Position numbers and translations under genes: made by a program. Positions 562 through 55,679 of a stretch of DNA of 64,000 nucleotides are shown here, piece by piece. The DNA lies in NCBI GenBank assembly GCA_003268905.1, contig QLTU01000001.1, forward strand, positions 1 to 64,000. The letters run 5' to 3'. The notes beneath the pieces are model-generated. The model saw nothing but the letters and a program-made list of their open reading frames with translations, searched no databases and was not told the origin of the DNA. Every line of letters starts with the position of its first letter. Position 1 is the stretch's first letter. Source of the DNA: Acidovorax defluvii. Its GTDB lineage: Bacteria > Pseudomonadota > Gammaproteobacteria > Burkholderiales > Burkholderiaceae_C.

Positions 562-620
562 CCTAACCATTCAGTCAAGCGGACTGGCCAAAGGCCAGCC
601 GCTTACCTTTATCGTTAGTC
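562..620 (+). repeat. attC site 2
   Basis: CCTAAC at 562, stem with loop GGCCAAAGGCC, core GTTAGTC at 614-620. Confidence 0.88.
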
Positions 621-933
621 CCTTCACATTCCGCGTCATGCAGGCCGCCATTAACTCCAGCGCTTTGCCTTTCTCCAAGGTTTCTCCTTGGGGGTTTTGG
701 CGCTCTGCGGGGCTTCGCCTGCGTTCGCTTCGGCAGGTTCAAGCCTTTTTGGCCTCCAGCGCTTGCCAGCCAAGCGCCACCAGCTATCATTCTTGCAGTG
801 CTGCGCCGCTTCCGTGGCTCAGCGCTTTTGCGTGGGTTGTGCCCGTCTTCAAGTCAGGGCGCCCCTTTTTGGCCTTCGGGTCTAACTCTGCGCTCAAGCG
901 GACTGGCTTTCAGCCAGCCGCTTACCTTGGCCG
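615..933 (+). mobile_element. Repeated CR1-type cassette, subfamily ii (319 bp)
   Basis: One of twelve full copies of the repeated cassette. It contains the CR1 palindrome core near 760-800. An open frame of about 99 codons from ATG at 638 runs into the attC, but frame integrity is not kept in all copies, so I do not call a gene. Confidence 0.85.
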
Positions 934-939
934 TTAGTC
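881..939 (+). repeat. attC site 3
   Basis: TCTAAC at 881, stem GGCTTTCAGCC, core GTTAGTC at 933-939. It is identical to attC 13. Confidence 0.92.
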
Positions 940-948
940 TGCGAAAAC

Positions 949-1149
949 GTGATTACCGAATCCTTCGTTTTGCTTGTTCAAGAGTTGGTTAGCTCTATTG
1001 CCTTCAAGATTGCTGTCCGACTCAAAGTTGGACAGCACGAACGATGGAAACGTATGGCGCTTGAATTTTTCGTCTTTGCGCTTCTTGTCATACCGTTATT
1101 CTTTATCTTTGGCTGGCTATTTCTTCAGGCTGTTTCATGGCTTCTTTAG
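949..1149 (+). CDS. Small membrane protein cassette, copy 1 (66 aa)
   Basis: GTG start 12 bases after the core site. The C-terminal half (about residues 38-63) is one strongly hydrophobic membrane segment. The N-terminal half is a short amphipathic region with several basic residues. No family is recognised. An identical copy with its flanking attC sites occurs at 5051-5251, so the cassette has been duplicated inside the array. Codon use is AT-richer than the surrounding chromosome. A single-pass small membrane protein is the most that can be said. Confidence 0.65.
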   Translation: MITESFVLLVQELVSSIAFKIAVRLKVGQHERWKRMALEFFVFALLVIPLFFIFGWLFLQAVSWLL

Positions 1150-1156
1150 CAATCGT

Positions 1157-1216
1157 GCCTAACTCTGCACTCAAGCCGACCCGCCTACGGCGGGCGGCTT
1201 ACCTTGGCCGTTAGTC
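1157..1216 (+). repeat. attC site 4
   Basis: GCCTAAC at 1157, CCCGCC/GGCGGG stem, core GTTAGTC at 1210-1216. It is identical to attC 14. Confidence 0.92.
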
Positions 1217-1476
1217 CCTTCATATTCCCCCTTTATGCAGGCCGCATTTATTCCAGCGCTTCGCATCTCTCAAAGGCTTTCCAAGCCTTTTTGGCCTCCA
1301 GCGCTTGCCAGCCAAGCGCCACCAGCTATCATTCTTGCAGTGCTGCGCCGCTTCCGTGGCTCAGCGCTTTTGCGTGGGTTGTGCCCGTCTTCAAGTCAGG
1401 GCGCTCCCTTTTTGGCCTTCGGGTCTAACTCTGCGCTCAAGCGGACTGGCTTTCAGCCAGCCGCTTACCTTGGCCG
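1211..1476 (+). mobile_element. Repeated CR1-type cassette, deleted copy (266 bp)
   Basis: Belongs to subfamily ii but lacks about 53 bp of the left half, between the conserved TTTCTCC stretch and the AAGCCTTTTTGG stretch, and has a base missing near the ATGCAGG start-like codon. Both changes break the frame that is open in other copies. Confidence 0.85.
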
Positions 1477-1482
1477 TTAGGC
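1424..1482 (+). repeat. attC site 5
   Basis: TCTAAC at 1424, GGCTTTCAGCC stem, core GTTAGGC at 1476-1482. Confidence 0.92.
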
Positions 1483-1488
1483 CATCTC

Positions 1489-1905
1489 ATGCGCGGTCTC
1501 ACGCTATTTCGGTCAACGCTGCTATTGCCCCTTGCGGCACCGGGCATCGCTCTTTTGTTGCAGTTGGAAGCAGCTGGGTTTCTCGGAGTCGCGACCTTCG
1601 TTGTTGCCGCGCCATATGCAATTTTTGTGTGCTGGGCGTGGCAGCGCATGGGACGGTTTACCAGCTTCAGAGAGGCCTACACCTTTCTTGCGACGGCACC
1701 GGTTATTTTCGCTGTTCCGATCTGCCTGCTTTGGTTGCTTGGCTCACTTGCCATAGCCATACCATTTTCAACAGCCTTGAAGTCAACTAGCCAGCTACTT
1801 GCAGTCTTGGTAGGTGCGGCGTATCTATACAGTGCCACTGCGGCCCTTTTGGCTGCACTGGCACAAGCCATTGGAATGGTCAGTGAATACAAATGTAATG
1901 AGTAG
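1489..1905 (+). CDS. Multi-pass membrane protein cassette (138 aa)
   Basis: ATG 8 bases after the core. Four hydrophobic segments can be read (about residues 9-27, 33-50, 64-92 and 98-127), separated by short charged loops, so the protein is an inner-membrane protein. It has no signal-peptide cleavage site and no recognised family. It fills the cassette 1477-1965, with its stop just before attC 6. It is AT-richer than the chromosomal background. Function unknown. Confidence 0.7.
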
Positions 1906-1911
1906 GCAAGG

Positions 1912-1971
1912 GCCTAACCCGTCGGCCCAGTCGCGACAGCCTTCGGCTGCCGCTGGCCTCCAACGTTAGTC
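1912..1971 (+). repeat. attC site 6
   Basis: GCCTAAC at 1912, stem around GCCTTCGGC, core GTTAGTC at 1965-1971. The stem sequence is unlike the other attC sites. Confidence 0.85.
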
Positions 1972-2283
1972 CCTTCATATTCCGCTTTATGCAGGCCAGC
2001 ATTTATTCCAGCGCTTCGCCAATCTCAAAGGTTTCTCCTTTGGGGTTTTGGCGCTGCGCCGGGCTTCGCCTGTCTGCACTGCGCAGGTTTCAAGCCTTTT
2101 TGGCCTCCAGCGCTTGTGCGGTAAGCGCCACCAGCTATCATTCTTGCAGCGTTGCGTCGCTTCCGTGGCGCAGCGCTTTTTCATGGGCCGCGCACGTCTT
2201 CAAGTCAGGGCGCCCCCTTTTGGCCTTCGGGTCTAACTGTTCGTCGCAGCCGACCGCCTACGGCGGCGGCTGAACTCAGGGCG
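1966..2283 (+). mobile_element. Repeated CR1-type cassette, subfamily iii (318 bp)
   Basis: Near-identical to the next cassette (2284-2601) and to 5632-5949. All three share the attC type with CGACCGCC/GGCGG arms. A 94-codon frame opens at ATG 1989. Confidence 0.85.
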
Positions 2284-2289
2284 TTAGTC
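2232..2289 (+). repeat. attC site 7
   Basis: TCTAAC at 2232, CCGCCTACGGCGG stem, core GTTAGTC at 2283-2289. Confidence 0.92.
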
Positions 2290-2601
2290 CCTTCATATTC
2301 CGCTTTATGCAGGCCAGCATTTATTCCAGCGCTTCGCCAATCTCAAAGGTTTCTCCTTTGGGGTTTTGGCGCTGCGCCGGGCTTCGCCTGTCTGCACTGC
2401 GCAGGTTTCAAGCCTTTTTTGCCTCCAGCGCTTTTGCAGTAAGCGCCACCAGCTATCATTCTTGCAGCGTTGCGTCGCTTCCGTGGCGCAGCGCTTTTTC
2501 ATGGGCCGCGCCCGTCTTCAAGTCAGGGCGCCCCCTTTTGGCCTTCGGGTCTAACCATTCGTCGCAGCCGACCGCCTACGGCGGCGGCTGAACTCAGGGC
2601 G
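2284..2601 (+). mobile_element. Repeated CR1-type cassette, subfamily iii (318 bp)
   Basis: Tandem neighbour of the cassette at 1966-2283, with only a handful of differences. CR1 core near 2427-2470. A 94-codon frame opens at ATG 2307. Confidence 0.85.
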
Positions 2602-2607
2602 TTAGCC
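2550..2607 (+). repeat. attC site 8
   Basis: TCTAAC at 2550, CCGCCTACGGCGG stem, core GTTAGCC at 2601-2607. Confidence 0.92.
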
Positions 2608-2921
2608 GCTTAGAAACCCGCTTTATTCAGGCCCATGTTTTATTCACCGGCATTCACCTTCTCAAGCATTTATTCGCTGGGTTTTTACCGTGTGCCGGGC
2701 TTCGCCTTGGGGTGCTGCGCCAGTTTCAAGCGTTTTTGGCCTCTAGCCCTTGTGCAGCAAGAGCTACCAGCTATCATTTTGCAAGCATTGCGCCGCCTCC
2801 GTGGCGCCGTGCTTTTTCGCAGTTTGCGCCCGTCGTCAAGCTGGGGTTTCCCGTGCTGGCTTCTGGGTCTAACTGTGCAGTCAAGCCGACCCGCCTTCGG
2901 CGGGCGGCTTACTTTCGTTCG
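2602..2921 (+). mobile_element. Repeated CR1-type cassette, subfamily i (320 bp)
   Basis: Divergent subfamily, nearly identical to 7371-7690. The ATGCAGG start-like codon of the other copies is ATTCAGG here. CR1 core near 2740-2785. Confidence 0.85.
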
Positions 2922-2927
2922 TTAGGT
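2868..2927 (+). repeat. attC site 9
   Basis: TCTAAC at 2868, CCCGCCTTCGGCGGG stem, core GTTAGGT at 2921-2927. Confidence 0.92.
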
Positions 2928-2930
2928 GGC

Positions 2931-3224
2931 ATGAAAACCCTCCTCTTTCTCGCTGCGGCACTGGCCTCTTTCGGTGGTCTTGCGCAGAACTTGCCTGGCG
3001 AAGTCGCGCGCTTCATCGAAGAGCGCAAGAAGTGTGAGCACTTTCTCGGTGAGCCGGTCGAGGGGCGCACTGCCGAACAGCGAGAGCGCCGCGATTTTGT
3101 CGCCGATAGCATCGACCTCTATTGCTCGGGGACCGATAAGCGCCTCGCGGCCTTGAAGCGGCGGTACGCTGGTAACGCACGTGTCATGGCTTTATTGCGC
3201 CCTTTGGAGGCGAAACTGGAATGA
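2931..3224 (+). CDS. Small secreted/periplasmic cassette protein (97 aa)
   Basis: ATG 5 bases after the GTTAG core. Residues 1-18 form a short signal peptide (MKT, hydrophobic core, cleavage near GLAQ). The mature part is charged, carries two cysteines (in KKCEHF and DLYCSG) that could form one disulfide, and has a C-terminal helix rich in Arg and Lys. Similar small exported proteins with a CEHF...C-GTDKRL pattern occur in proteobacterial cassettes as far as I recall, but I know no function. The unusually long attC 10 follows it. Confidence 0.72.
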
Positions 3225-3234
3225 GGCACAGGCC

Positions 3235-3348
3235 ACCTAACAGGTCGTTCGACGCGGACACGCAACGGCATTGCGCCGCAAGGCGTGCTGGTAAGCGTAC
3301 GCCTCGCGGCGCAATGCCATTGCGTGCCGGTCAACTCCGACGTTAGAC
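3235..3348 (+). repeat. attC site 10 (long, about 114 bp)
   Basis: ACCTAAC at 3235 and GTTAGAC at 3342-3348. Arms such as CGCAACGGCATTGCGCCGC and its complement near 3302-3330 make a long stem. This is much longer than the 58-60 bp sites around it and belongs to the cassette upstream of aadA. Confidence 0.85.
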
Positions 3349-3351
3349 ATC

Positions 3352-4197
3352 ATGAGTAACGCAGTACCCGCCGAGATTTCGGTACAGCTATCACTGGCTC
3401 TCAACGCCATCGAGCGTCATCTGGAATCAACGTTGCTGGCCGTGCATTTGTACGGCTCTGCACTGGACGGTGGCCTGAAGCCATACAGTGATATTGATTT
3501 GCTGGTTACTGTGGCTGCACAGCTCGATGAGACTGTCCGACAAGCCCTGGTCGTAGATCTCTTGGAAATTTCTGCCTCCCCTGGCCAAAGTGAGGCTCTC
3601 CGCGCCTTGGAAGTTACCATCGTCGTGCATGGTGATGTTGTCCCTTGGCGTTATCCGGCCAGACGGGAACTGCAATTCGGGGAGTGGCAGCGTAAGGACA
3701 TTCTTGCGGGCATCTTCGAGCCCGCCACAACCGATGTTGATCTGGCTATTCTGCTAACTAAAGTAAGGCAGCATAGCCTTGCATTGGCAGGTTCGGCCGC
3801 AGAGGATTTCTTTAACCCAGTTCCGGAAGGCGATCTATTCAAGGCATTGAGCGACACTCTGAAACTATGGAATTCGCAGCCGGATTGGGAAGGCGATGAG
3901 CGGAATGTAGTGCTTACCTTGTCTCGCATTTGGTACAGCGCAGCAACCGGCAAGATCGCACCGAAGGATATCGTTGCCAACTGGGCAATTGAGCGTCTGC
4001 CAGATCAACATAAGCCCGTACTGCTTGAAGCCCGGCAGGCTTATCTTGGACAAGGAGAAGATTGCTTGGCCTCACGCGCGGATCAGTTGGCGGCGTTCGT
4101 TCACTTCGTGAAACATGAAGCCACTAAATTGCTTGGTGCCATGCCAGTGATGTCTAACAATTCATTCAAGCCGAACCCGCTTCGCGGGTCGGCTTAA
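3352..4197 (+). CDS. aadA: Aminoglycoside (streptomycin/spectinomycin) O-nucleotidyltransferase AadA, ANT(3'')-I
   Basis: The enzyme transfers AMP from ATP to streptomycin and spectinomycin in the cytoplasm, giving resistance. The nucleotidyltransferase signature is clear at residues 34-52: YGSALDGG, then SDIDLLV with the two metal-binding aspartates. Further AadA hallmarks are VPWRYPA, FGEWQR, DILAGIFEPA, DERNVVLTLSRIW and ASRADQL. The sequence resembles the AadA6/A10/A11 branch more than AadA1; the exact allele cannot be assigned without a search. The reading frame continues through the attC and ends in its right half (tail NNSFKPNPLRGSA), giving 281 aa. There is no ribosome-binding site by the ATG, as usual for aadA cassettes. 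The cassette spans 3343-4205 and is intact. Confidence 0.96.
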   Translation: MSNAVPAEISVQLSLALNAIERHLESTLLAVHLYGSALDGGLKPYSDIDLLVTVAAQLDETVRQALVVDLLEISASPGQSEALRALEVTIVVHGDVVPWRYPARRELQFGEWQRKDILAGIFEPATTDVDLAILLTKVRQHSLALAGSAAEDFFNPVPEGDLFKALSDTLKLWNSQPDWEGDERNVVLTLSRIWYSAATGKIAPKDIVANWAIERLPDQHKPVLLEARQAYLGQGEDCLASRADQLAAFVHFVKHEATKLLGAMPVMSNNSFKPNPLRGSA

Positions 4198-4211
4198 TTC
4201 AGGTGTTAGAT
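4152..4211 (+). repeat. attC site 11 (aadA cassette)
   Basis: TCTAAC at 4153, CCCGCTTCGCGGG stem, core GTTAGAT at 4205-4211. It overlaps the 3' end of aadA and is of the compact type found in mobile resistance cassettes. Confidence 0.93.
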
Positions 4212-4319
4212 GCCAGATTTGGCGTTGCGTATGCTCACAGAAAATCGATAGCCGCAAGACTGTTTTTGGCAACTCATAGCCACTACAATTTCTCCTTCAT
4301 ACCGTAGAGGAGATTGCGC

Positions 4320-4652
4320 GTGAAGAACTGGATATTTCTGGCTGTTGCAATCTTTGGCGAGGTCATCGCAACTTCCGCACTGAAGTCTAGCCATGGATTC
4401 ACTAGGTTAGTTCCTTCCGTTGTAGTTGTGGCTGGCTACGGGCTTGCGTTCTATTTCTTGTCTCTCGCGCTCAAGTCCATTCCGGTCGGTATTGCTTACG
4501 CTGTATGGGCTGGGCTTGGCATCGTGCTTGTGGCAGCTATTGCTTGGATTTTCCATGGCCAAAAACTAGACTTCTGGGCGTTCATTGGCATGGGACTTAT
4601 CGTCAGTGGCGTCGCCGTTCTAAACCTGCTATCCAAGGTCAGCGCACATTGA
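4320..4652 (+). CDS. qacF: Small multidrug resistance (SMR) exporter, QacF/QacE-like
   Basis: A 110-aa inner-membrane protein that exports quaternary ammonium compounds and other lipophilic cations by proton antiport, as a dimer. Four membrane helices are visible. The conserved membrane glutamate is Glu13 ([12 protein letters not shown]). [25 protein letters not shown] and WIFHGQKLD follow, as in QacE, QacF and QacH. It looks closest to QacF/QacL; the allele is not certain. The start is GTG at 4320, 7-9 bases after the AGAGGAG ribosome-binding site. Unlike most cassettes the gene has a 114-bp leader (4206-4319) that could hold its own promoter (a TACAAT box near 4283-4288). The cassette spans 4206-4716. 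Confidence 0.93.
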
Positions 4653-4662
4653 CCGGGTTGGC

Positions 4663-4722
4663 ATCTAACAATTCATTCAAGCCGACGCCGCTTCGCGGCG
4701 CGGCTTAATTCAGGCGTTAGTC
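4663..4722 (+). repeat. attC site 12 (qac cassette)
   Basis: ATCTAAC at 4663, GCCGCTTCGCGGC stem, core GTTAGTC at 4716-4722. Confidence 0.93.
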
Positions 4723-5035
4723 CCTTCATATTCCGCTTTATGCAGGACCGCATTTATTCCAGCGCTTCGCCTTTCTCAAAGGTTTCTCTTTGGTGGTTTT
4801 GGCGCTCTGCTGGGCTTCGCCTGCGTTTGCTTGGTCGGTTTCAAGCCTTTTGGGCCTCTGGCGCTTGTGCAGCAAGCGCCACCAGCTATCATTCTTGCAG
4901 CGCTGCTCCGCTTCGGTGGCCCAGCGCTTTTTCATGGGCTGCGCACGTCTTCAAGGCTGGGCGCACCCTTTTGGCCTTCGGGTCTAACTCTGCGCTCAAG
5001 CGGACTGGCTTTCAGCCAGCCGCTTACCTTGGCCG
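4717..5035 (+). mobile_element. Repeated CR1-type cassette, subfamily ii (319 bp)
   Basis: Follows the qac cassette directly. A 99-codon frame opens at ATG 4740. CR1 core near 4853-4900. Confidence 0.85.
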
Positions 5036-5041
5036 TTAGTC
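4983..5041 (+). repeat. attC site 13
   Basis: Identical to attC 3; core GTTAGTC at 5035-5041. Confidence 0.92.
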
Positions 5042-5050
5042 TGCGAAAAC

Positions 5051-5251
5051 GTGATTACCGAATCCTTCGTTTTGCTTGTTCAAGAGTTGGTTAGCTCTAT
5101 TGCCTTCAAGATTGCTGTCCGACTCAAAGTTGGACAGCACGAACGATGGAAACGTATGGCGCTTGAATTTTTCGTCTTTGCGCTTCTTGTCATACCGTTA
5201 TTCTTTATCTTTGGCTGGCTATTTCTTCAGGCTGTTTCATGGCTTCTTTAG
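5051..5251 (+). CDS. Small membrane protein cassette, copy 2 (66 aa)
   Basis: By eye identical to the protein encoded at 949-1149, with the same GTG start and one C-terminal membrane segment. Identity extends across both flanking attC sites (881-1216 against 4983-5318). This points to a recent duplication or a second capture of the same circular cassette. No function is recognised. Confidence 0.65.
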   Translation: MITESFVLLVQELVSSIAFKIAVRLKVGQHERWKRMALEFFVFALLVIPLFFIFGWLFLQAVSWLL

Positions 5252-5258
5252 CAATCGT

Positions 5259-5318
5259 GCCTAACTCTGCACTCAAGCCGACCCGCCTACGGCGGGCGGC
5301 TTACCTTGGCCGTTAGTC
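5259..5318 (+). repeat. attC site 14
   Basis: Identical to attC 4; core GTTAGTC at 5312-5318. Confidence 0.92.
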
Positions 5319-5631
5319 CTCTCATATTTCTCTTTATGCAAGCCTACATTCATTCCAGCGCTTCGCCTTTATCCAAGGTTTCTCCTTTGGGTTTTTGGCG
5401 CTTTGCCGGGCTTCGCCTGCGTTCGCTTGGTCGGTTTCAGGCCTTTTGGGCCTCTGGCGCTTGTGTAGCAAGCGCTGCTAGCTATCATTCTTGCAGCGCT
5501 GCGCCGCTTCCGTGGCCCAGCGCTTTTTCATGGGCCGCGCACGTCTTCAAGGCTGGGCGCCCCTTTTTGGCCTTCGGGTCTAACTCTGCGCTCAAGCGGA
5601 CTGGCTTTCAGCCAGCCGCTTACCTTGGCCG
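5313..5631 (+). mobile_element. Repeated CR1-type cassette, subfamily ii (319 bp)
   Basis: Almost identical to the cassettes at 6230-6548 and 6549-6867. A 109-codon frame that includes 5' bases of the preceding attC end runs through it. Confidence 0.85.
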
Positions 5632-5637
5632 TTAGTC
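5579..5637 (+). repeat. attC site 15
   Basis: TCTAAC at 5579, GGCTTTCAGCC stem, core GTTAGTC at 5631-5637. Confidence 0.92.
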
Positions 5638-5949
5638 CCTTCATATTCCGCTTTATGCAGGCCAGCATTTATTCCAGCGCTCCGCCAATCTCAAAGGTTT
5701 CTCCTTTGGGGTTTTGGCGCTGCGCCGGGCTTCGCCTGTCTGCACTGCGCAAGTTTCAAGCCTTTTTGGCCTCCAGCGCTTGTGCAGTAAGCGCCACCAG
5801 CTATCATTCTTGCAGCGCTGCGCCGCTTCCGTGGCCCAGCGCTTTTTCATGGGCCGCGCACGTCTTCAAGGCTGGGCGCCCCCTTTTGGCCTTCGGGTCT
5901 AACCATTCGTCGCAGCCGACCGCCTACGGCGGCGGCTGAACTCAGGGCG
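5632..5949 (+). mobile_element. Repeated CR1-type cassette, subfamily iii (318 bp)
   Basis: Close to the pair at 1966-2601, although separated from them by about 3 kb of other cassettes. Confidence 0.85.
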
Positions 5950-5955
5950 TTAGCC
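5898..5955 (+). repeat. attC site 16
   Basis: TCTAAC at 5898, CCGCCTACGGCGG stem, core GTTAGCC at 5949-5955. Confidence 0.92.
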
Positions 5956-6229
5956 TTTCGCGCATTCGCTTGCCCACTTCACGGCCCATGGTTGCTTTAC
6001 CCGCTGTCATTCATTCGCAGGTTTTGCCGTTGGTGTTCGGTCGCTCTGCGGGGCTGCGCCTGTTGGCAGGGTCAGTTTTCAAAGCTTTTTTGGCCGTCAC
6101 CGTGCGTCCACATTCGGCTTCTAGCTCTGCTTTTCATAGCACCCACCGTTTGGCTGGTGTCGTTTTCCACCCTGCCGCTAACCCGGCAGTCAAGCTGACC
6201 CGCCAAAGGCGGGCAGCTTACTTTGTCCG
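5950..6229 (+). mobile_element. Divergent cassette without a convincing gene (280 bp)
   Basis: It keeps parts of the repeated-cassette plan (GCTCTGCGGGGCT, TTTTCAAAGC, TTTTTTGGCC and a TTCTAGC piece) but the rest has drifted and the palindrome core is not complete. An 87-codon frame opens at 5970 and runs into the attC. I would treat it as an old relative of the CR1 cassettes. Confidence 0.6.
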
Positions 6230-6235
6230 TTAGAC
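6176..6235 (+). repeat. attC site 17
   Basis: CGCTAAC at 6176, CCCGCCAAAGGCGGG stem, core GTTAGAC at 6229-6235. Confidence 0.9.
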
Positions 6236-6548
6236 CTCTCATATTTCTCTTTATGCAGGCCTACATTCATTCCAGCGCTTCGCCTTTATCCAAGGTTTCT
6301 CCTTTGGGTTTTTGGCGCTTTGCCGGGCTTCGCCTGCGTTCGCTTGGTCGGCTTCAGGCCTTTTGGGCCTCTGGCGCTTGTGTAGCAAGCGCTGCTAGCT
6401 ATCATTCTTGCAGCGCTGCGCCGCTTCCGTGGCCCAGCGCTTTTTCATGGGCCGCGCACGTCTTCAAGGCTGGGCGCCCCCTTTTGGCCTTCGGGTCTAA
6501 CTCTGCGCTCAAGCGGACTGGCTTTCAGCCAGCCGCTTACCTTGGCCG
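6230..6548 (+). mobile_element. Repeated CR1-type cassette, subfamily ii (319 bp)
   Basis: First of a tandem pair that differ at very few positions; CR1 core near 6366-6412. Confidence 0.87.
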
Positions 6549-6554
6549 TTAGTC
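6496..6554 (+). repeat. attC site 18
   Basis: TCTAAC at 6496, GGCTTTCAGCC stem, core GTTAGTC at 6548-6554. Confidence 0.92.
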
Positions 6555-6867
6555 CTCTCATATTCCTCTTTATGCAGGCCTACATTCATTCCAGCGCTTC
6601 GCCTTTATCCAAGGTTTCTCCTTTGGGTTTTTGGCGCTTTGCCGGGCTTCGCCTGCGTTCGCTTGGTCGGCTTCAGGCCTTTTGGGCCTCTGGCGCTTGT
6701 GTAGCAAGCGCTGCTAGCTATCATTCTTGCAGCGCTGCGCCGCTTCCGTGGCCCAGCGCTTTTTCATGGGCCGCGCACGTCTTCAAGGCTGGGCGCACCC
6801 TTTTGGCCTTCGGGTCTAACTCTGCGCTCAAGCGGACTGGCTTTCAGCCAGCCGCTTACCTTGGCCG
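6549..6867 (+). mobile_element. Repeated CR1-type cassette, subfamily ii (319 bp)
   Basis: Second of the tandem pair; CR1 core near 6685-6731. Confidence 0.87.
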
Positions 6868-6873
6868 TTAGGC
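6815..6873 (+). repeat. attC site 19
   Basis: TCTAAC at 6815, GGCTTTCAGCC stem, core GTTAGGC at 6867-6873. Confidence 0.92.
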
Positions 6874-6878
6874 ATATC

Positions 6879-7304
6879 ATGTCGCGTGCTCGTCTTGTTC
6901 CCATTGGCCTGCTGGTTCTTACGGTCCTCCCTGTATCCGTTCTGTTGGTACCGTTAGTTCTGTTTGGGCTACCTTTCTGGATAGCAGGGATAGCGGATGT
7001 CATTGCGGGAAATTACGGCTTCAGTGAATTAACTGACTCGGCTCGCCCAGACGTAGCTCTAATGTTTATTTCTGCGCCATTAGGCCTAGTATCATTGATC
7101 TACCTTTGGATATTCTTGGTATTGGATATCAAGGGTAAGTCCCCACGAAATCGACGCAACTACACAATCGCACTCTCCCTAGGAATTCTCGCTGGAGTTC
7201 AGTTGCTTTTCGTGCAGTTTGGGATCTTATTCTTCCTAGCTCCCGCCACACTTTATGCGCTTTATAAGCTTCAGAAATCAAATCAGCATGATCCAGCTGC
7301 CTAA
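6879..7304 (+). CDS. Multi-pass membrane protein cassette (141 aa)
   Basis: I choose the ATG at 6879, 7 bases after the core GTTAG; a TTG further upstream would start inside the attC. Hydrophobic segments near residues 7-47 (probably two helices), 64-86 and 102-130 suggest four membrane passes. A charged cytoplasmic loop ([12 protein letters not shown]) lies between the last two groups. No family is recognised. The stop codon is formed inside the first box of attC 20. AT-rich relative to the chromosome. Confidence 0.7.
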
Positions 7305-7376
7305 CACTGCGCTCCAGCCGACCGGCTACAGCGGGCTTTGCCCGCTTCCACCGCCGGCTGAGCTTCGACGTTAGCC
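7299..7376 (+). repeat. attC site 20 (78 bp)
   Basis: GCCTAAC at 7299, stem GCGGGCTTTGCCCGC, core GTTAGCC at 7370-7376. Confidence 0.88.
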
Positions 7377-7690
7377 GCTTAGAAACCCGCTTTATTCAGG
7401 CCCATGTTTTATTCACCGGCATTCACCTTCTCAAGCATTTATCCGCTGGGTTTTTGCCGTGTGCCGGGCTTCGCCTTGGGGTGCTGCGCCAGTTTCAAGC
7501 GTTTTTGGCCTCTAGCCCTTGTGCAGCAAGCGCTACCAGCTATCATTTTGCAAGCATTGCGCCGCCTCCGTGGCGCCGTGCTTTTTCGCAGTTTGCGCCC
7601 GTCGTCAAGCTGGGGTTTCCCGTGCTGGCTTCTGGGTCTAACTGTGCAGTCAAGCCGACCCGCCTTCGGCGGGCGGCTTACTTTCGTTCG
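7371..7690 (+). mobile_element. Repeated CR1-type cassette, subfamily i (320 bp)
   Basis: Nearly identical to 2602-2921, including the ATTCAGG change; CR1 core near 7508-7555. Confidence 0.85.
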
Positions 7691-7696
7691 TTAGTC
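7637..7696 (+). repeat. attC site 21
   Basis: TCTAAC at 7637, CCCGCCTTCGGCGGG stem, core GTTAGTC at 7690-7696. Confidence 0.92.
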
Positions 7697-8010
7697 CCTC
7701 CATACTCCCGCTTTATGCAGGCCCGCATTTATTCCAGCGCTTCGCCTTTCTCAAGCGTTTTTCCGCTGGGGTTTTGGCCGTGTGGCGGGCTTCGCCTGGG
7801 GCTTGTGCGCTTTTTCAAGCCTTTTAGGCCGCTAGCCCTTGCGCAGCAAGCGCTAGTAGCTATCATTTTGAAAGTGTTGCGCCGCTTCCGTGGCGCAGCG
7901 CTTTTTCGCAGTGTGCGCCCGTCGTCAACCTGGGGTTTCCCGTTTTGGCCTATGGGTCTAACTGTGCAGTCAAGCCGACCCGCATTCTGCGGGCGGCTTA
8001 CTTTCGGGCG
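7691..8010 (+). mobile_element. Repeated CR1-type cassette, subfamily i variant (320 bp)
   Basis: Most divergent full copy. It has the ATGCAGG start-like codon, but an indel near 7810 changes the frame and a TAG appears in the frame used by other copies. Confidence 0.83.
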
Positions 8011-8016
8011 TTAGCC
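7957..8016 (+). repeat. attC site 22 (last of main array)
   Basis: TCTAAC at 7957, CCCGCATTCTGCGGG stem, core GTTAGCC at 8010-8016. Confidence 0.9.
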
Positions 8017-8044
8017 TGCCTTTTATTCCTGCCCATTTCAGCCC

Positions 8045-8386
8045 ATGAATATCACAGCACAACCTACTTGCACGACACGCGCCTGGCTGGTGGCGGCACT
8101 ACTCAGCGTCCTGACCGTTGGCATCACACCCGCTGCGCAAGCGCAAACCTCCGGCTCGCTACCCATCTACCGCTGTGTGTCGGCTGACGGTACGTCCAGC
8201 CGCATCAGTCGAACCCCTTGTGCAGCTGGAGAAGCTGGTACGGCCAAACAAGCAGTGGCAGGCACAGCCCAACAAAAGCCAGCCATCGTCCACCAAAGTC
8301 CCAGCGTGCCTGCTCAAAGCCAAGCACATGAGGAAACAAACCGCCCACGCGCCCACACGACTCACCGGTCGGGTCGTCGGCGCTGA
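8045..8386 (+). CDS. Secreted DUF4124-like protein, last cassette of the array (113 aa)
   Basis: A signal peptide is clear (residues 1-34, ending in AAQA-QT). The next part, IYRCVSADGTSSRISRTPCAAG, has the look of the DUF4124 fold (two cysteines, a G-x-x-x-S strand-turn pattern) common in betaproteobacterial envelope proteins. The C-terminal 50 residues are low-complexity (Ala, Gln, Pro, His, Arg). No attC is seen after the stop; about 25 bases later the sequence joins the truncated IS5-family transposase. Either the attC was lost when the IS segment arrived, or the gene lies just outside the array. The tail may be altered by that junction. Confidence 0.6.
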   Translation: MNITAQPTCTTRAWLVAALLSVLTVGITPAAQAQTSGSLPIYRCVSADGTSSRISRTPCAAGEAGTAKQAVAGTAQQKPAIVHQSPSVPAQSQAHEETNRPRAHTTHRSGRRR

Positions 8387-8409
8387 GCTGGCGGCATCTT
8401 TTTTGGCTT

Positions 8410-8701
8410 TAGGGCCTAATCGTCCATGGGCATCGAGCTGGGCAAACTCCCGGTAGATCGGGGTGTCAAAGAAGGCCTCTTCCATCGCCAGATCCGACAA
8501 GGTGAACCACTGTTGCATGCAGTGGATGCGCAGCATGGTCTCCAGTGCAAAGGGTGGGCGACCGTTCTTGCCTTCGGGGTAATACGGGGTGATGAGCTCG
8601 ACCAACGCAGCCCAGGGAACCACCAGATCCATCTGGGCAAGCAGTTCCTGCTTGCGGGTCTTCTTGGTACTCAGGTTCAGATCAAGGCTGCTTTGCTTCA
8701 T
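8410..8701 (-). pseudogene. 5' fragment of an IS5-family transposase gene
   Basis: From the ATG at 8701 the first roughly 95 residues match the N-terminal part of IS5-type transposases: a basic start with KKTRKQELL, then LVPW, ITPYYPEG, GRPPFALETMLRIHCMQQW, LSDLAMEEAFFDTP and YREFAQLD. Similarity stops at AHGRL. The catalytic DDE domain is absent, because the sequence runs into cassette DNA. The frame stays open by chance to 8159 in unrelated sequence. The upstream end of the IS should lie near 8735-8770 but I could not define the terminal repeat. No transposition activity is expected. Confidence 0.85.
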
Positions 8702-8886
8702 GCCTGTGAGGATGCCATTGCATGCTGACATGTACCAAACATTGCGGAGGGTTTTGCAGGATTTCCTTTAAGATCAAGAATCAAGACAATTCAGATACAG
8801 TGATTGAGAAATCGGCATTTTTGGTTCCCCGTTAATCAGCTTGTTTCTATTTTTGACAAGCGATTATTTTTTATCTACAGGAGTAA

Positions 8887-9321
8887 ATGATGAACGTTAT
8901 GAAATCGATGAAGAAAACCGTTTTAGTGGGTTCTGGTTTGATGGCTTTGGCTTTGAGCAGCCACGCCTCTGAACTGTTTGTCAACATCCACAGTGGCCAA
9001 GCCATGGCGCAAGGTGCGGGTCTGGTGCTGGCCGGCCAAGCGGCAGCGCAAAAAGCCCCAGTGCGCGTGCTGTTGTGTGACGCTGCTGGCGATATCGCCG
9101 TCGTCGGCAAAGAGCTGCCCAAGCTCAAGCCTAAAGATGTGACCACCCAACAAATGCTGCAAGGTCTGATCAAGTCTGGCGTCAAGGTCGAGGTCTGTGC
9201 GCTGTACCTGCCCAACAGCGGTCACCAAGCCAGCGACTTGATCGCTGGCGTAACGGCAGCCAATCCGGCGGATGTGGCTGCGCACCTGCTCAAGCCTGAA
9301 GTCAAAACCCTCGGCTTCTAA
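8887..9321 (+). CDS. DsrE/DsrF-like family protein with signal peptide
   Basis: The gene starts at ATG 8887 after an AGGAG ribosome-binding site. Residues 1-28 are an export signal (basic start, hydrophobic core, SHASE cleavage). The mature part has the DsrE-like alternating strand/helix pattern: FVNIHSG, ...GAGLVLAGQAAAQKAPVRVLLCDAAG..., ...GVKVEVCALYLPNSG. It has two cysteines that could be redox or sulfur-relay residues. Periplasmic DsrE-like proteins are often linked to sulfur handling, but the exact role here is unknown. It lies between the IS5 remnant and a DUF3817 gene 8 bp downstream, probably in one transcript. Upstream DNA (8820-8880) is AT-rich and may hold the promoter. Confidence 0.78.
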   Translation: MMNVMKSMKKTVLVGSGLMALALSSHASELFVNIHSGQAMAQGAGLVLAGQAAAQKAPVRVLLCDAAGDIAVVGKELPKLKPKDVTTQQMLQGLIKSGVKVEVCALYLPNSGHQASDLIAGVTAANPADVAAHLLKPEVKTLGF

Positions 9322-9329
9322 GTTGCGGC

Positions 9330-9665
9330 ATGGCTGTCACTGCTTCTGATTCGCTGCGTGTGTTGCGCATTGCCTCAGTCATCGAGGGCGCAACCTTGCT
9401 GCTGCTGTTTTTGGTGGCGATGCCGCTGAAGTATGTGGCCGACACGCCGCTGGCCGTGAGCATCGTCGGGCCGATCCACGGCGCGGCGTTTTTGATTTAC
9501 ACCGCGCTGGTACTGCAGTCGTTTGTTTCGCGGCTGATCAGCGTGACCGAGGTGGCGCGGCTGATGGCGGTGGCGTTTATTCCGCTGGGCGCGTGGCTGG
9601 TGGCCGCAATGCTACGCCGCCCGCGTACCGTGCCCTTGGTGGGCAAAAATCGGCTGCATTTTTAG
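9330..9665 (+). CDS. DUF3817 integral membrane protein
   Basis: A 111-aa protein with three hydrophobic segments (about residues 14-35, 42-65 and 77-97). It carries the DUF3817 pattern: LRVLRIASVIEGATLLLLF near the start, PLKYV, and GPIHGAAFLIYT in the second helix. These proteins are small inner-membrane proteins of unknown function. It starts 8 bp after the DsrE-like gene and likely shares its transcript, which would end at the strong terminator at 9738-9779. Confidence 0.85.
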   Translation: MAVTASDSLRVLRIASVIEGATLLLLFLVAMPLKYVADTPLAVSIVGPIHGAAFLIYTALVLQSFVSRLISVTEVARLMAVAFIPLGAWLVAAMLRRPRTVPLVGKNRLHF

Positions 9666-9672
9666 TGAAATC

Positions 9673-9720
9673 GGCCTCTAGCCCAATAGATACGTGCGAT
9701 AGTAGCTATTAATTTAATAG
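9673..9720 (+). repeat. Degenerate CR1 dispersed repeat
   Basis: It keeps GGCCTCTAGC at one end and TAGTAGCTATTA at the other, but the palindrome between them has decayed. Confidence 0.5.
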
Positions 9721-9737
9721 TATTTAAGCGCTGGCAG

Positions 9738-9779
9738 CCAAAAAAAGACGCTCTCCTGTGGGGGAGAGCGTCTTTTTTA
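9738..9779 (+). terminator. Rho-independent terminator
   Basis: Stem AGACGCTCTCC / GGAGAGCGTCT with loop TGTGG, A-run before and T-run after, so it can work in both directions. Confidence 0.9.
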
Positions 9780-9789
9780 TTGGGCCGTT

Positions 9790-9945
9790 TTAAGCCGCGC
9801 TGATGTGCACTGGCGGCAGGCTGTCCGGGTCAATCGCTTCGTCCAGCGTGCCGCCGCGGTAAATCGGCGCGGCAGGGCGCGCCAGCAGCTCGCGCACAAA
9901 GTTGGGCTGGGCCAGCAGCGCTTGGTGCGTTGCGCCGTTGGAAAA
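9790..9945 (-). pseudogene. 3' remnant of a gene (about 50 codons)
   Basis: On the minus strand a well-formed C-terminal coding stretch (HQALLAQPNFVRELLARP, IYRGGTLDEAIDPDSLPP) ends at TAA 9790-9792, next to the terminator. Upstream it breaks at about 9945, where CAGGGACAGACCACG begins, a junction sequence of the kind seen next to REP/transposase remnants. The original gene family is not recognised; part of the gene was lost. Confidence 0.5.
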
Positions 9946-9970
9946 ACAGGGACAGACCACGTTTAATATC

Positions 9971-10042
9971 GCCTAACATGGTGCTCCAGCCGAAGCCGGT
10001 TTCGCTCTCGCTCAACCGGCTCGGCTGAGCTTGACGTTAGGC
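9971..10042 (+). repeat. attC site 23 (orphan array)
   Basis: GCCTAAC at 9971, arms CAGCCGA/TCGGCTG, core GTTAGGC at 10036-10042. It lies about 2 kb beyond the end of the main array, in the same orientation. Confidence 0.85.
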
Positions 10043-10322: not shown

Positions 10323-10382
10323 GCCTAACAATTCGTTCAAGCCGACGCCGCTTCGAGGCGCGGCTTAACTCAGGTGTTAGTC
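10323..10382 (+). repeat. attC site 24 (orphan array)
   Basis: GCCTAAC at 10323, stem GCCGCTTCGAGGC, core GTTAGTC at 10376-10382. It resembles attC 11 and 12. Confidence 0.9.
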
Positions 10383-10610
10383 CCCCGAAAAAATCCGCAT
10401 TATTCAGGCCCATGATTATCAAAACGGCATTTCTCACCTCTCAGGCGCGGCTCAGCACTGGGGTTGCCGTTTCTCCGGGCTTCGCTTGGTGTGCTGCGCA
10501 GGTTCGCGGTCTTTTTGGCCTCCAGCGCTTTTGCAGCAAGCGCTAGCAGCTATCATTTTGCGATTATCGCGCCGCTTCAGCAGCACCGGTTGCCCAACCC
10601 TGAAGGCAGG
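10377..10610 (+). mobile_element. Partial or divergent repeated CR1-type cassette
   Basis: Begins with TTAGTCCCC at the attC 24 core and carries ATTCAGGCCCATG, CCGGGCTTCGC, TTTTTGGCC and a CR1 core at 10517-10560. It then diverges after GCGCCGCTTC, and no attC follows. This marks the right limit of recognisable integron DNA. Confidence 0.7.
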
Positions 10611-55603: not shown

Positions 55604-55679
55604 TGGTGGGACGTGCGGGGGTCGAACCCACGACAAACGGATTAAAAGTCCGCTGCTCTACCAACTGAGCTAACGTCCC
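55604..55679 (-). tRNA. tRNA-Lys (anticodon UUU)
   Basis: 76 nt, CCA encoded. Acceptor GGGACGT / ACGTCCC, D arm with AGCTCAGTTGGTAGAGC, anticodon loop CTTTTAA, TPsiC arm GTGGGTTCGACCCCCGC. All arms pair. Confidence 0.97.

Follow-up and report, generated by a model that had tools for sequence, protein, structure and literature searches.

A repeated integron cassette of Acidovorax defluvii is probably a non-coding element built around a predicted transcription terminator

Introduction

Why should a single cassette be present twelve times in one stretch of a chromosomal integron array, and what would it do there? The question is raised by the first 64,000 nucleotides of contig QLTU01000001.1 of Acidovorax defluvii (GenBank assembly GCA_003268905.1), hereafter the window, whose first 10.4 kb form the distal end of such an array. 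A preliminary description of this DNA, made from the letters alone, recorded one gene-poor cassette in twelve copies and left it as a structured RNA, a promoter-bearing spacer or a selfish element. We propose that the cassette is probably non-coding and that it works through a Rho-independent terminator facing in the sense direction of the array, which would make it a portable insulator or off-switch. Four observations form the basis of this reading: the homology of the copies, the lack of coding constraint, a hairpin with a T-tract in one orientation, and the retention of that structure in deleted copies.

One cassette body in at least 28 copies

The genome is assembled in 83 contigs, with the window on contig C1 and further family copies on C33 and C17. 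When cassette length is taken as the distance between successive attC R' sites, the twelve cassettes of the preliminary description are all found where it had placed them, with one common body, eleven of 318-320 bp and one of 266 bp. The family members of the window, assigned by comparison of body and attC except where other evidence is given, are as follows.

615..933 (+), family cassette, 319 bp, subfamily ii body, attC 882-937 (R' spacing; Pfam DUF1010 1.5e-32)
1211..1476 (+), family cassette, 266 bp, 53-bp internal deletion, predicted terminator kept (body alignment, hairpin scan)
1966..2283 (+), family cassette (iii), 318 bp (body and attC comparison; Pfam DUF1010 search)
2284..2601 (+), family cassette (iii), 318 bp
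2602..2921 (+), family cassette (i), 320 bp
4717..5035 (+), family cassette (ii attC), 319 bp
5313..5631 (+), family cassette (ii), 319 bp
5632..5949 (+), family cassette (iii), 318 bp
6230..6548 (+), family cassette (ii), 319 bp
6549..6867 (+), family cassette (ii), 319 bp
7371..7690 (+), family cassette (i), 320 bp
7691..8010 (+), family cassette (divergent i), 320 bp, the same in body and attC as the C17 copy next to attI
10377..10588 (+), family copy truncated where the array ends distally, broken off within the predicted terminator hairpin, without attC

All twelve copies have at their 3' end an attC of 55-57 bp with core sites and inverted arms. Measured between TTAG and the R'' box of the attC, body length is 267 bp for all eleven full copies of the window and 214 bp for the one at 1211. 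The relationship extends outside the attC: against the 615 body, the remaining copies of the window give E values of 2e-34 to 2e-111, far beyond chance, and the division into three body subfamilies (i, ii and iii) is supported as well. The first 37 bases of contig C1 exactly repeat the end of a type i body, and the gene next after the array end is one that we take to be FKBP-like.

With an attC at its 3' end, and with intI and attI in the same genome, the repeated element is an integron gene cassette. One integron integrase in the genome scores over the family cut-off (466 bits); it lies on C33, in divergent orientation to a short array with which the contig ends, where the attI core GTCGTCTAATTCTAGTTAG is followed by a family copy. 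A second array, on C17 (L027, reverse strand 900-954), begins at the attI core GTCGTCTAATTCTAGTTAG that it has in common with the C33 integron; no integrase motif was found beside or upstream of this attI-like core, and a different sequence precedes it.

In total the genome holds at least 28 copies in two arrays, 12 in the window, 3 on C33 beside intI and 13 on C17, a count that includes two copies with a deletion and excludes the truncated copy at 10377-10588 and the 37-base fragment at the contig start. This is a lower bound because C1 starts and C33 ends at copies, and since copies are where the assembly is interrupted, more of them probably exist. Family members make up 28 of the 49 delimited array cassettes, against 21 others, from which the 2-kb stretch 8011-10036, not being a single simple cassette, was excluded. 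The heavy amplification noted earlier is strong in this genome, but it is not unique to it, as repeated copies occur in several related genomes.

The open frame that begins with MQA corresponds to Pfam family DUF1010 (PF06231), with E values of 1.5e-32, 2.7e-31 and 9.6e-33 for three window open reading frames (ORFs) of subfamilies ii and iii. The ATG-started ORF of subfamily i has no Pfam DUF1010 match; the DNA of this subfamily does match in the DUF1010 frame. Judged by sequence similarity, the family is the DUF1010, gcuF or orfD cassette of clinical class 1 integrons. The preliminary description mentions neither this identity nor the terminator-like hairpin and internal repeat described below.

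A hairpin and T-tract in one orientation

On the sense strand of the array, the body has a GC-rich hairpin at body positions 184-211, of which 10 pairs were scored and up to 13 occur, with four or five T directly after it. A stable GC-rich stem directly before a T-tract is the anatomy of an intrinsic terminator. Folding places the predicted terminators of the window as follows.

798..829 (+), 615 copy, predicted intrinsic-terminator hairpin and T-tract, -21.2 kcal/mol (43-nt stretch), z -3.5
1340..1371 (+), predicted terminator, 1211 copy
2148..2181 (+), predicted terminator, 1966 copy, 13 pairs, z -5.0
2466..2499 (+), predicted terminator, 2284 copy
2784..2817 (+), predicted terminator, 2602 copy
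4899..4932 (+), predicted terminator, 4717 copy, z -2.8
5495..5528 (+), predicted terminator, 5313 copy
5814..5847 (+), predicted terminator, 5632 copy
6412..6445 (+), predicted terminator, 6230 copy
6731..6764 (+), predicted terminator, 6549 copy
7553..7586 (+), predicted terminator, 7371 copy
7873..7906 (+), predicted terminator, 7691 copy, z -5.4

For a wider comparison of bodies, this genome, 15 relatives and four plasmid records supplied 141 profile hits; 78 of these hits have both ends, and the 76 within the length and coverage limits give 73 distinct bodies (24 from this genome, 39 from 11 of the 15 relatives and 10 from plasmids), the two deleted copies not being in the alignment. In the 10-pair stem, standard pairs account for 89% of the cells over the 73 bodies, and the best four of 2160 candidate 10-pair stems are this same helix cut at different ends, against a median of 41% for all candidates. 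Several stem pairs vary and yet stay paired (pair 3 is G-C in 34 bodies, G-T in 22, A-T in 15 and something else in 2), and the five bases of the tail are all T in 62 bodies and include at least four T in 72. The rate of change in the stem columns is close to that of the whole body (88 changes in 20 columns versus 1265 in 267), yet the pairing is retained. At least eight pairs are present in 99, and at least four T in 101, of the 105 copies that cover the stem.

The signal is confined to one strand. A terminator of -12 kcal/mol or below is found on the sense strand of all 28 genome copies (-13.5 to -27.2) and on the antisense strand of one, and both deleted copies retain it. Among the 21 other cassettes of the same arrays, this threshold is reached once in the sense (-12.2, inside a gene) and once in the antisense orientation, and at a laxer -8 five times and four times, respectively; only stem strength, position and strand set the family apart from these cassettes. 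All twelve window copies fold more stably than their dinucleotide shuffles (z -2.8 to -5.4). If full-class copies from all sources are considered (hits with a cassette start, a model start of at most 60, a score of at least 40 and a match reaching model position 180), 75/78 have the sense terminator at -12 or below and 1/78 the antisense one. The d-score of d'Aubenton-Carafa is above zero in 25/26 full copies here, 29/41 from relatives and 6/10 from plasmids, in none of 385 mononucleotide shuffles, and in 60 of 77 named-genome loci, these last having been fetched by the stem pattern itself. The strict stem pattern occurs 16 times in the genome, always within arrays. At attI sites recognized by motif in family-bearing genomes, a family member is the first cassette in 14 of 19 cases, nine with the stem-holding part and five of a short subtype, and is not the first in the other five.

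Several results weigh against a terminator. The stem was found by its anatomy and not by covariation: the covariance check proposed in the preliminary description, run over all column pairs with our own implementation, gave no pair at E < 0.05, and the phylogenetic null is only moderately exceeded, with 16 of 400 simulations reaching the observed stem pairing. A simple terminator scan of the window found 21 sites versus 16.3 (standard deviation 4.0) in shuffles, no clear excess. The T-tract is only 4-5 long, the d-score is negative in 12/41 full copies of relatives, 4/10 plasmid copies and 17/77 named-genome copies, and the short subtype (22 copies in relatives) is without the canonical stem, 11 of its copies having another hairpin at -12 or below. 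The attI tally comes from genomes picked for carrying the family, in which the family is common anyway.

Published data on gcuF1 also bear on this. As given in the main text of Hocquet et al. (2012; PMC3375312), blaOXA-28 mRNA is ten-fold lower when the 319-bp gcuF1 cassette (record FJ207466) stands upstream of the gene, and expression returns once the cassette is lost; the authors explain this by a weak ribosome-binding site, together with a fusion protein, and the words terminator, termination and hairpin are absent from that main text. The ten-fold drop behind gcuF1 fits termination, provided that gcuF1 has the same hairpin. Counting against the terminator interpretation is the report, in the same text, of a transcript spanning gcuF1 and blaOXA-28 and of a translated fusion protein (PMC3375312); any termination there must consequently be partial, and the frame can be read.

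The short subtype (about 213-235 bp; in relatives, e.g. L114, L108 and L113) sometimes stands at attI and has a different 3' part. Many of its copies have a possible hairpin, GTGGCC...GGTCAC, with the tail TTTCGTTTTT, which the terminator finder left unscored; this 3' hairpin may be a second terminator design.

The DUF1010 frame and the repeat beneath it

Changes on the tree of the 73 bodies are spread almost evenly over codon positions 1, 2 and 3 of the DUF1010 frame (429/388/448), as they are in the gap-free 144-column 3' block (228/197/228) and among the 24 distinct bodies of this genome alone (113/107/108), and no phase reaches a significant excess in the 73 bodies. The control, 16 intI ORFs taken from 14 genomes within the group, gives 521/302/1120, with 57.6% of changes at the third position, at a nearly equal mean identity (72%, and 73% for the bodies, or 73.2% without shared gaps). 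Purifying selection for a protein, the outcome that the preliminary description had said would make this a plain gene family, is thus not what we observe, and its view that the cassette ORF is probably no gene gains support from the comparison with intI. The reading frame is also not kept in length, as full-class bodies of 264, 267, 268, 269 and 272 bp occur (range 264-272, chiefly 267, 268 and 269), and several DUF1010 matches contain in-frame stops.

Within the window, the MQA frame is open from ATG to attC in 8/12 copies (615, 1966, 2284, 4717, 5313, 5632, 6230 and 6549). It is broken, as described earlier, in the copy at 1211, which has the 53-bp deletion, and in that at 7691, which has a TAG in the DUF1010 frame; the copies at 2602 and 7371 have an ATG-started ORF (MFYSPAF...) in a frame other than MQA. 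As part of the terminator reading, which we regard as probable taken as a whole, the frame of the DUF1010 'protein' (gcuF, orfD) would be incidental and the element non-coding.

A copy of a palindromic repeat, TTTTTGGCCTCTAGCGCTT-N6-AAGCGCTAGCAGCTATCA, also given as GGCCTCTAGCGCTT-N6-AAGCGCTAGCAGCTATCA, makes up the middle of the body; the repeat occurs across the chromosome, with examples in the window and at L029 (C1:223558) and L038 (C3:58929).

751..777 (+), core of the genome-wide palindromic repeat within the body (example, 615 copy)
1293, 2102, 4853, 5449, 5768, 6366, 6685 and 10517, further strict matches of the same repeat

The genome has 52 strict matches, those in the arrays included, and none to the reversed pattern. 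Within the genus 21/24 genomes have the repeat, the number of copies ranging from 0 to 122, and 16 genomes of the order that belong to other families lack it. By a crude ORF test, 16 of 21 chromosomal repeat loci have no coding-like ORF over them; at L038 the repeat lies within an apparent signal peptide. In its first half the DUF1010 model resembles a translation of this repeat, which would explain why weak DUF1010 matches elsewhere on the chromosomes cover the model start only. The repeat was considered as a terminator in its own right and rejected on its anatomy, there being a T-run before the stem and none directly after it.

Alternative explanations

Unlikely, though the best of the alternatives, is a purely selfish cassette that spreads by a well-recombining attC and whose hairpin has no function for the array. 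A high copy number in several genera, the shuffling of attC types and the identity of copies in separate arrays (7691 and C17_951) agree with such an element. Yet the hairpin and T-tract are kept on one strand at 73% mean identity and in the deleted copies, despite the ordinary rate of change in the stem, and an attC alone would suffice for a selfish element. Selfish spread and terminator function could both be true together.

We consider it quite improbable that the cassette encodes a small regulatory RNA ending at this terminator, in the manner of the sRNA-Xcc1 cassettes of Xanthomonas integrons, which are ORF-less and encode a regulatory RNA according to PMC6557892 (and, unnamed, PMC8876359). 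The terminator would supply the 3' end of such an RNA, the 5' part has a weak hairpin near body 62-82 (a stem of at least six pairs in 84% of bodies versus 53% of mononucleotide shuffles), and the repeat hairpin is better paired than its phylogenetic null, which reaches the observed value in 3 of 400 simulations. Against it stand the lack of significant covariation overall, the lack of promoter enrichment, with 2 sigma-70-like sites versus 2.9 expected in shuffles, and the Rfam search, which at gathering score found in the window only a tRNA at 55607-55679 and no family in the cassettes. The sRNA-Xcc1 RNA is itself an Rfam family, and the cassettes here differ from it in having no Rfam match. 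Stems at columns 245-268, 36-53 and 105-116 do not beat the null.

Three further candidates were rejected: a conserved RNA fold of the whole body, for which alifold against column shuffles gave z -2.7 (plus) and -3.9 (minus), yet no covarying pair at E < 0.05; a known RNA family, since below gathering score only three chance eukaryotic matches (E 1.3-3.5, in 600-2300) appear; and a promoter cassette, for which the scan, of sigma-70 type, gave no enrichment. The promoter-bearing spacer of the preliminary description accordingly finds no support, while the non-coding regulatory nature that it had entertained as one option does.

Least probable of all is a small real protein (DUF1010) with the copies as its gene family: the Pfam matches of three ORFs from subfamilies ii and iii (1e-31 to 1e-33), a frame open in most copies and the gcuF1-OXA-28 fusion protein observed in P. 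aeruginosa (main text of PMC3375312) favour it, but it has to contend with changes in no excess at third positions in any phase, with in-frame stops and full-class lengths that are not multiples of three, with a first half of the model that resembles the translated repeat, and with a low-confidence structure prediction in which no fold is apparent, AlphaFold giving the window ORFs a predicted local distance difference test score (pLDDT) of 48 and a predicted template-modelling score (pTM) of 0.20 on a shallow alignment of 8 similar rows and with no control protein.

Proposed mechanism and known systems

If the cassette is a terminator, its action may be pictured in three steps. IntI would move the cassette via its attC, as homology suggests and as the excision of the gcuF1 cassette as a circle by IntI, described in the main text of PMC3375312, illustrates. 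RNA polymerase coming from the cassette promoter (Pc) or from upstream cassettes would enter the body, where the hairpin would form and transcription would stop at the T-tract, and expression of downstream cassettes would be lowered. A copy at attI would damp Pc read-through into the whole array and keep a long array quiet. That termination takes place in the cell, and that it is the reason for the amplification, are inferences.

Non-coding cassettes that act on the transcription of their neighbours have precedents in the ORF-less cassettes of Vibrio superintegrons and of Treponema, as presented in PMC11014356 and PMC6557892; those cassettes supply sense or antisense promoters, whereas the family here has no sigma-70 signal and a predicted terminator instead. 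In PMC11014356, 'terminator' is used for an antisense-promoter effect and for Rho. Hairpins between cassettes, namely those of the attC, were once thought to lower downstream expression in a similar way; the attC, according to the review PMC8876359, is not a transcription terminator and lacks a T-rich tail, in contrast to the hairpin here, which lies in the body and has one. Among titles and abstract beginnings, with subscription papers mostly outside the search, we found no publication that calls DUF1010, gcuF, orfD or any gene-less cassette an intrinsic terminator. The cassette family by name and gene-less promoter cassettes are known, and no description of a regulatory non-coding cassette of terminator type came up in that search.

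Relation to clinical integrons

A blastn search of 72,556 plasmid records gave 1833 with a match, and among the matches listed 36/40 are annotated as 'DUF1010 domain-containing protein'. They include a cassette between dfrA12 and aadA2 beside intI1 and two cassettes in an OXA-2 array. The best plasmid records are 87-91% identical over the cassette; the version in the dfrA12 array, the middle cassette of dfrA12-gcuF-aadA2, is about 72% identical over three quarters of the cassette, and its whole body aligns with type i at 73.5%. This version has a match in 784/5426 complete E. coli genomes, in 769 of them with at least 80% in one place. Body length (267/268) and place of the attC in the plasmid gcuF and orfD cassettes are as here, and one gcuF-type cassette (L040) has the same hairpin and T-tract (-21.1 kcal/mol, z -4.2). 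The differences are that gcuF and orfD are described as a gene of unknown function, and here read as a terminator, and that the plasmid records examined have one or few copies per array (one plasmid has six places), whereas here at least 28 are chromosomal. Plasmid arrays were viewed in detail in five of the 1833 matching records, all of them arrays other than that of gcuF1.

For gcuF1 itself, the main text of PMC3375312 gives 78% identity to orfD cassettes and a cassette of Acidovorax sp. JS42 as the closest relative reported. Among 299 genomes of the family to which the window belongs, 46 have a DUF1010 match and 30 have one over the family cut-off; nine, this genome included, have at least 10 matches each when weak matches are counted. 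In Acidovorax temperans DSM 7270, nine family matches fall within 8 kb of the genome. In the GTDB species collection the strict stem pattern occurs in 32 stretches, 24 of which carry titles of Comamonadaceae genera (Acidovorax, Simplicispira, Comamonas, Ottowia, Oryzisolibacter, Paenacidovorax, Giesbergeria and Rhodoferax), the other eight being six metagenome-assembled genomes (MAGs) titled to order or phylum only, one Pseudomonas baetica contig and one Nitrosomonas MAG. This distribution points to the Comamonadaceae as the source of the DUF1010/gcuF cassette family.

A broader picture, to which we give somewhat less than even weight, is that chromosomal integrons of the Comamonadaceae carry and amplify dedicated terminator cassettes as mobile off-switches, that copies at attI silence the array, that gain and loss of copies through the integrase re-set expression of all that follows downstream, and that the clinical gcuF/DUF1010 cassettes are escaped members of this family and not a gene. 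If this is true, cassette order would set insulated blocks in addition to distance from Pc, and the integrase could move such blocks; the published ten-fold effect on expression would be explained; the Pfam family would have to be retired as a mis-annotated non-coding element; and a function could be assigned to the cassette matched in so many E. coli genomes.

Exchange of bodies and attC sites, and neighbouring cassettes

That body and attC evolve as one unit, as first proposed, is borne out by a complete link within the window, but it fails genome-wide. Among the 26 full copies, six pairs have bodies at least 95% identical but attC sites of different types, these being C17_1542 and C17_7720 compared with the window copies W_1966, W_2284 and W_5632, and C17_9407 combines the exact type i attC with a body that shares only 74-75% identity with type i copies. 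Nearest neighbours of C17_1542 and C17_7720 differ between thirds of the body, which suggests recombination between copies. The identity of the 7691 copy, in body and attC, with the attI-proximal copy on C17 suggests that copies have moved recently.

The family cassettes are interspersed with others. Positions 934-1210 and 5036-5312 are identical copies of another cassette (277 bp, 66-aa ORF) with family cassettes on both sides, and an aadA-type (ANT(3'')-I) cassette at 3343-4205 and a qac small multidrug resistance (SMR; QacL-like) cassette at 4206-4716 stand beside the family in the chromosomal array. An apparently non-coding cassette type occurs at 5950-6229 and on C17 (C17_1271; L027 reverse 1271-1541), the two matching each other at 75%. 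The former aligns with a section of the family body (nhmmer 3e-8, model 22-140), and neither has the canonical stem; on sequence grounds we treat both as putative distant relatives of the family. Between the array pieces, 8159-8731 is presumably a fragment resembling the start of an insertion sequence (IS) transposase.

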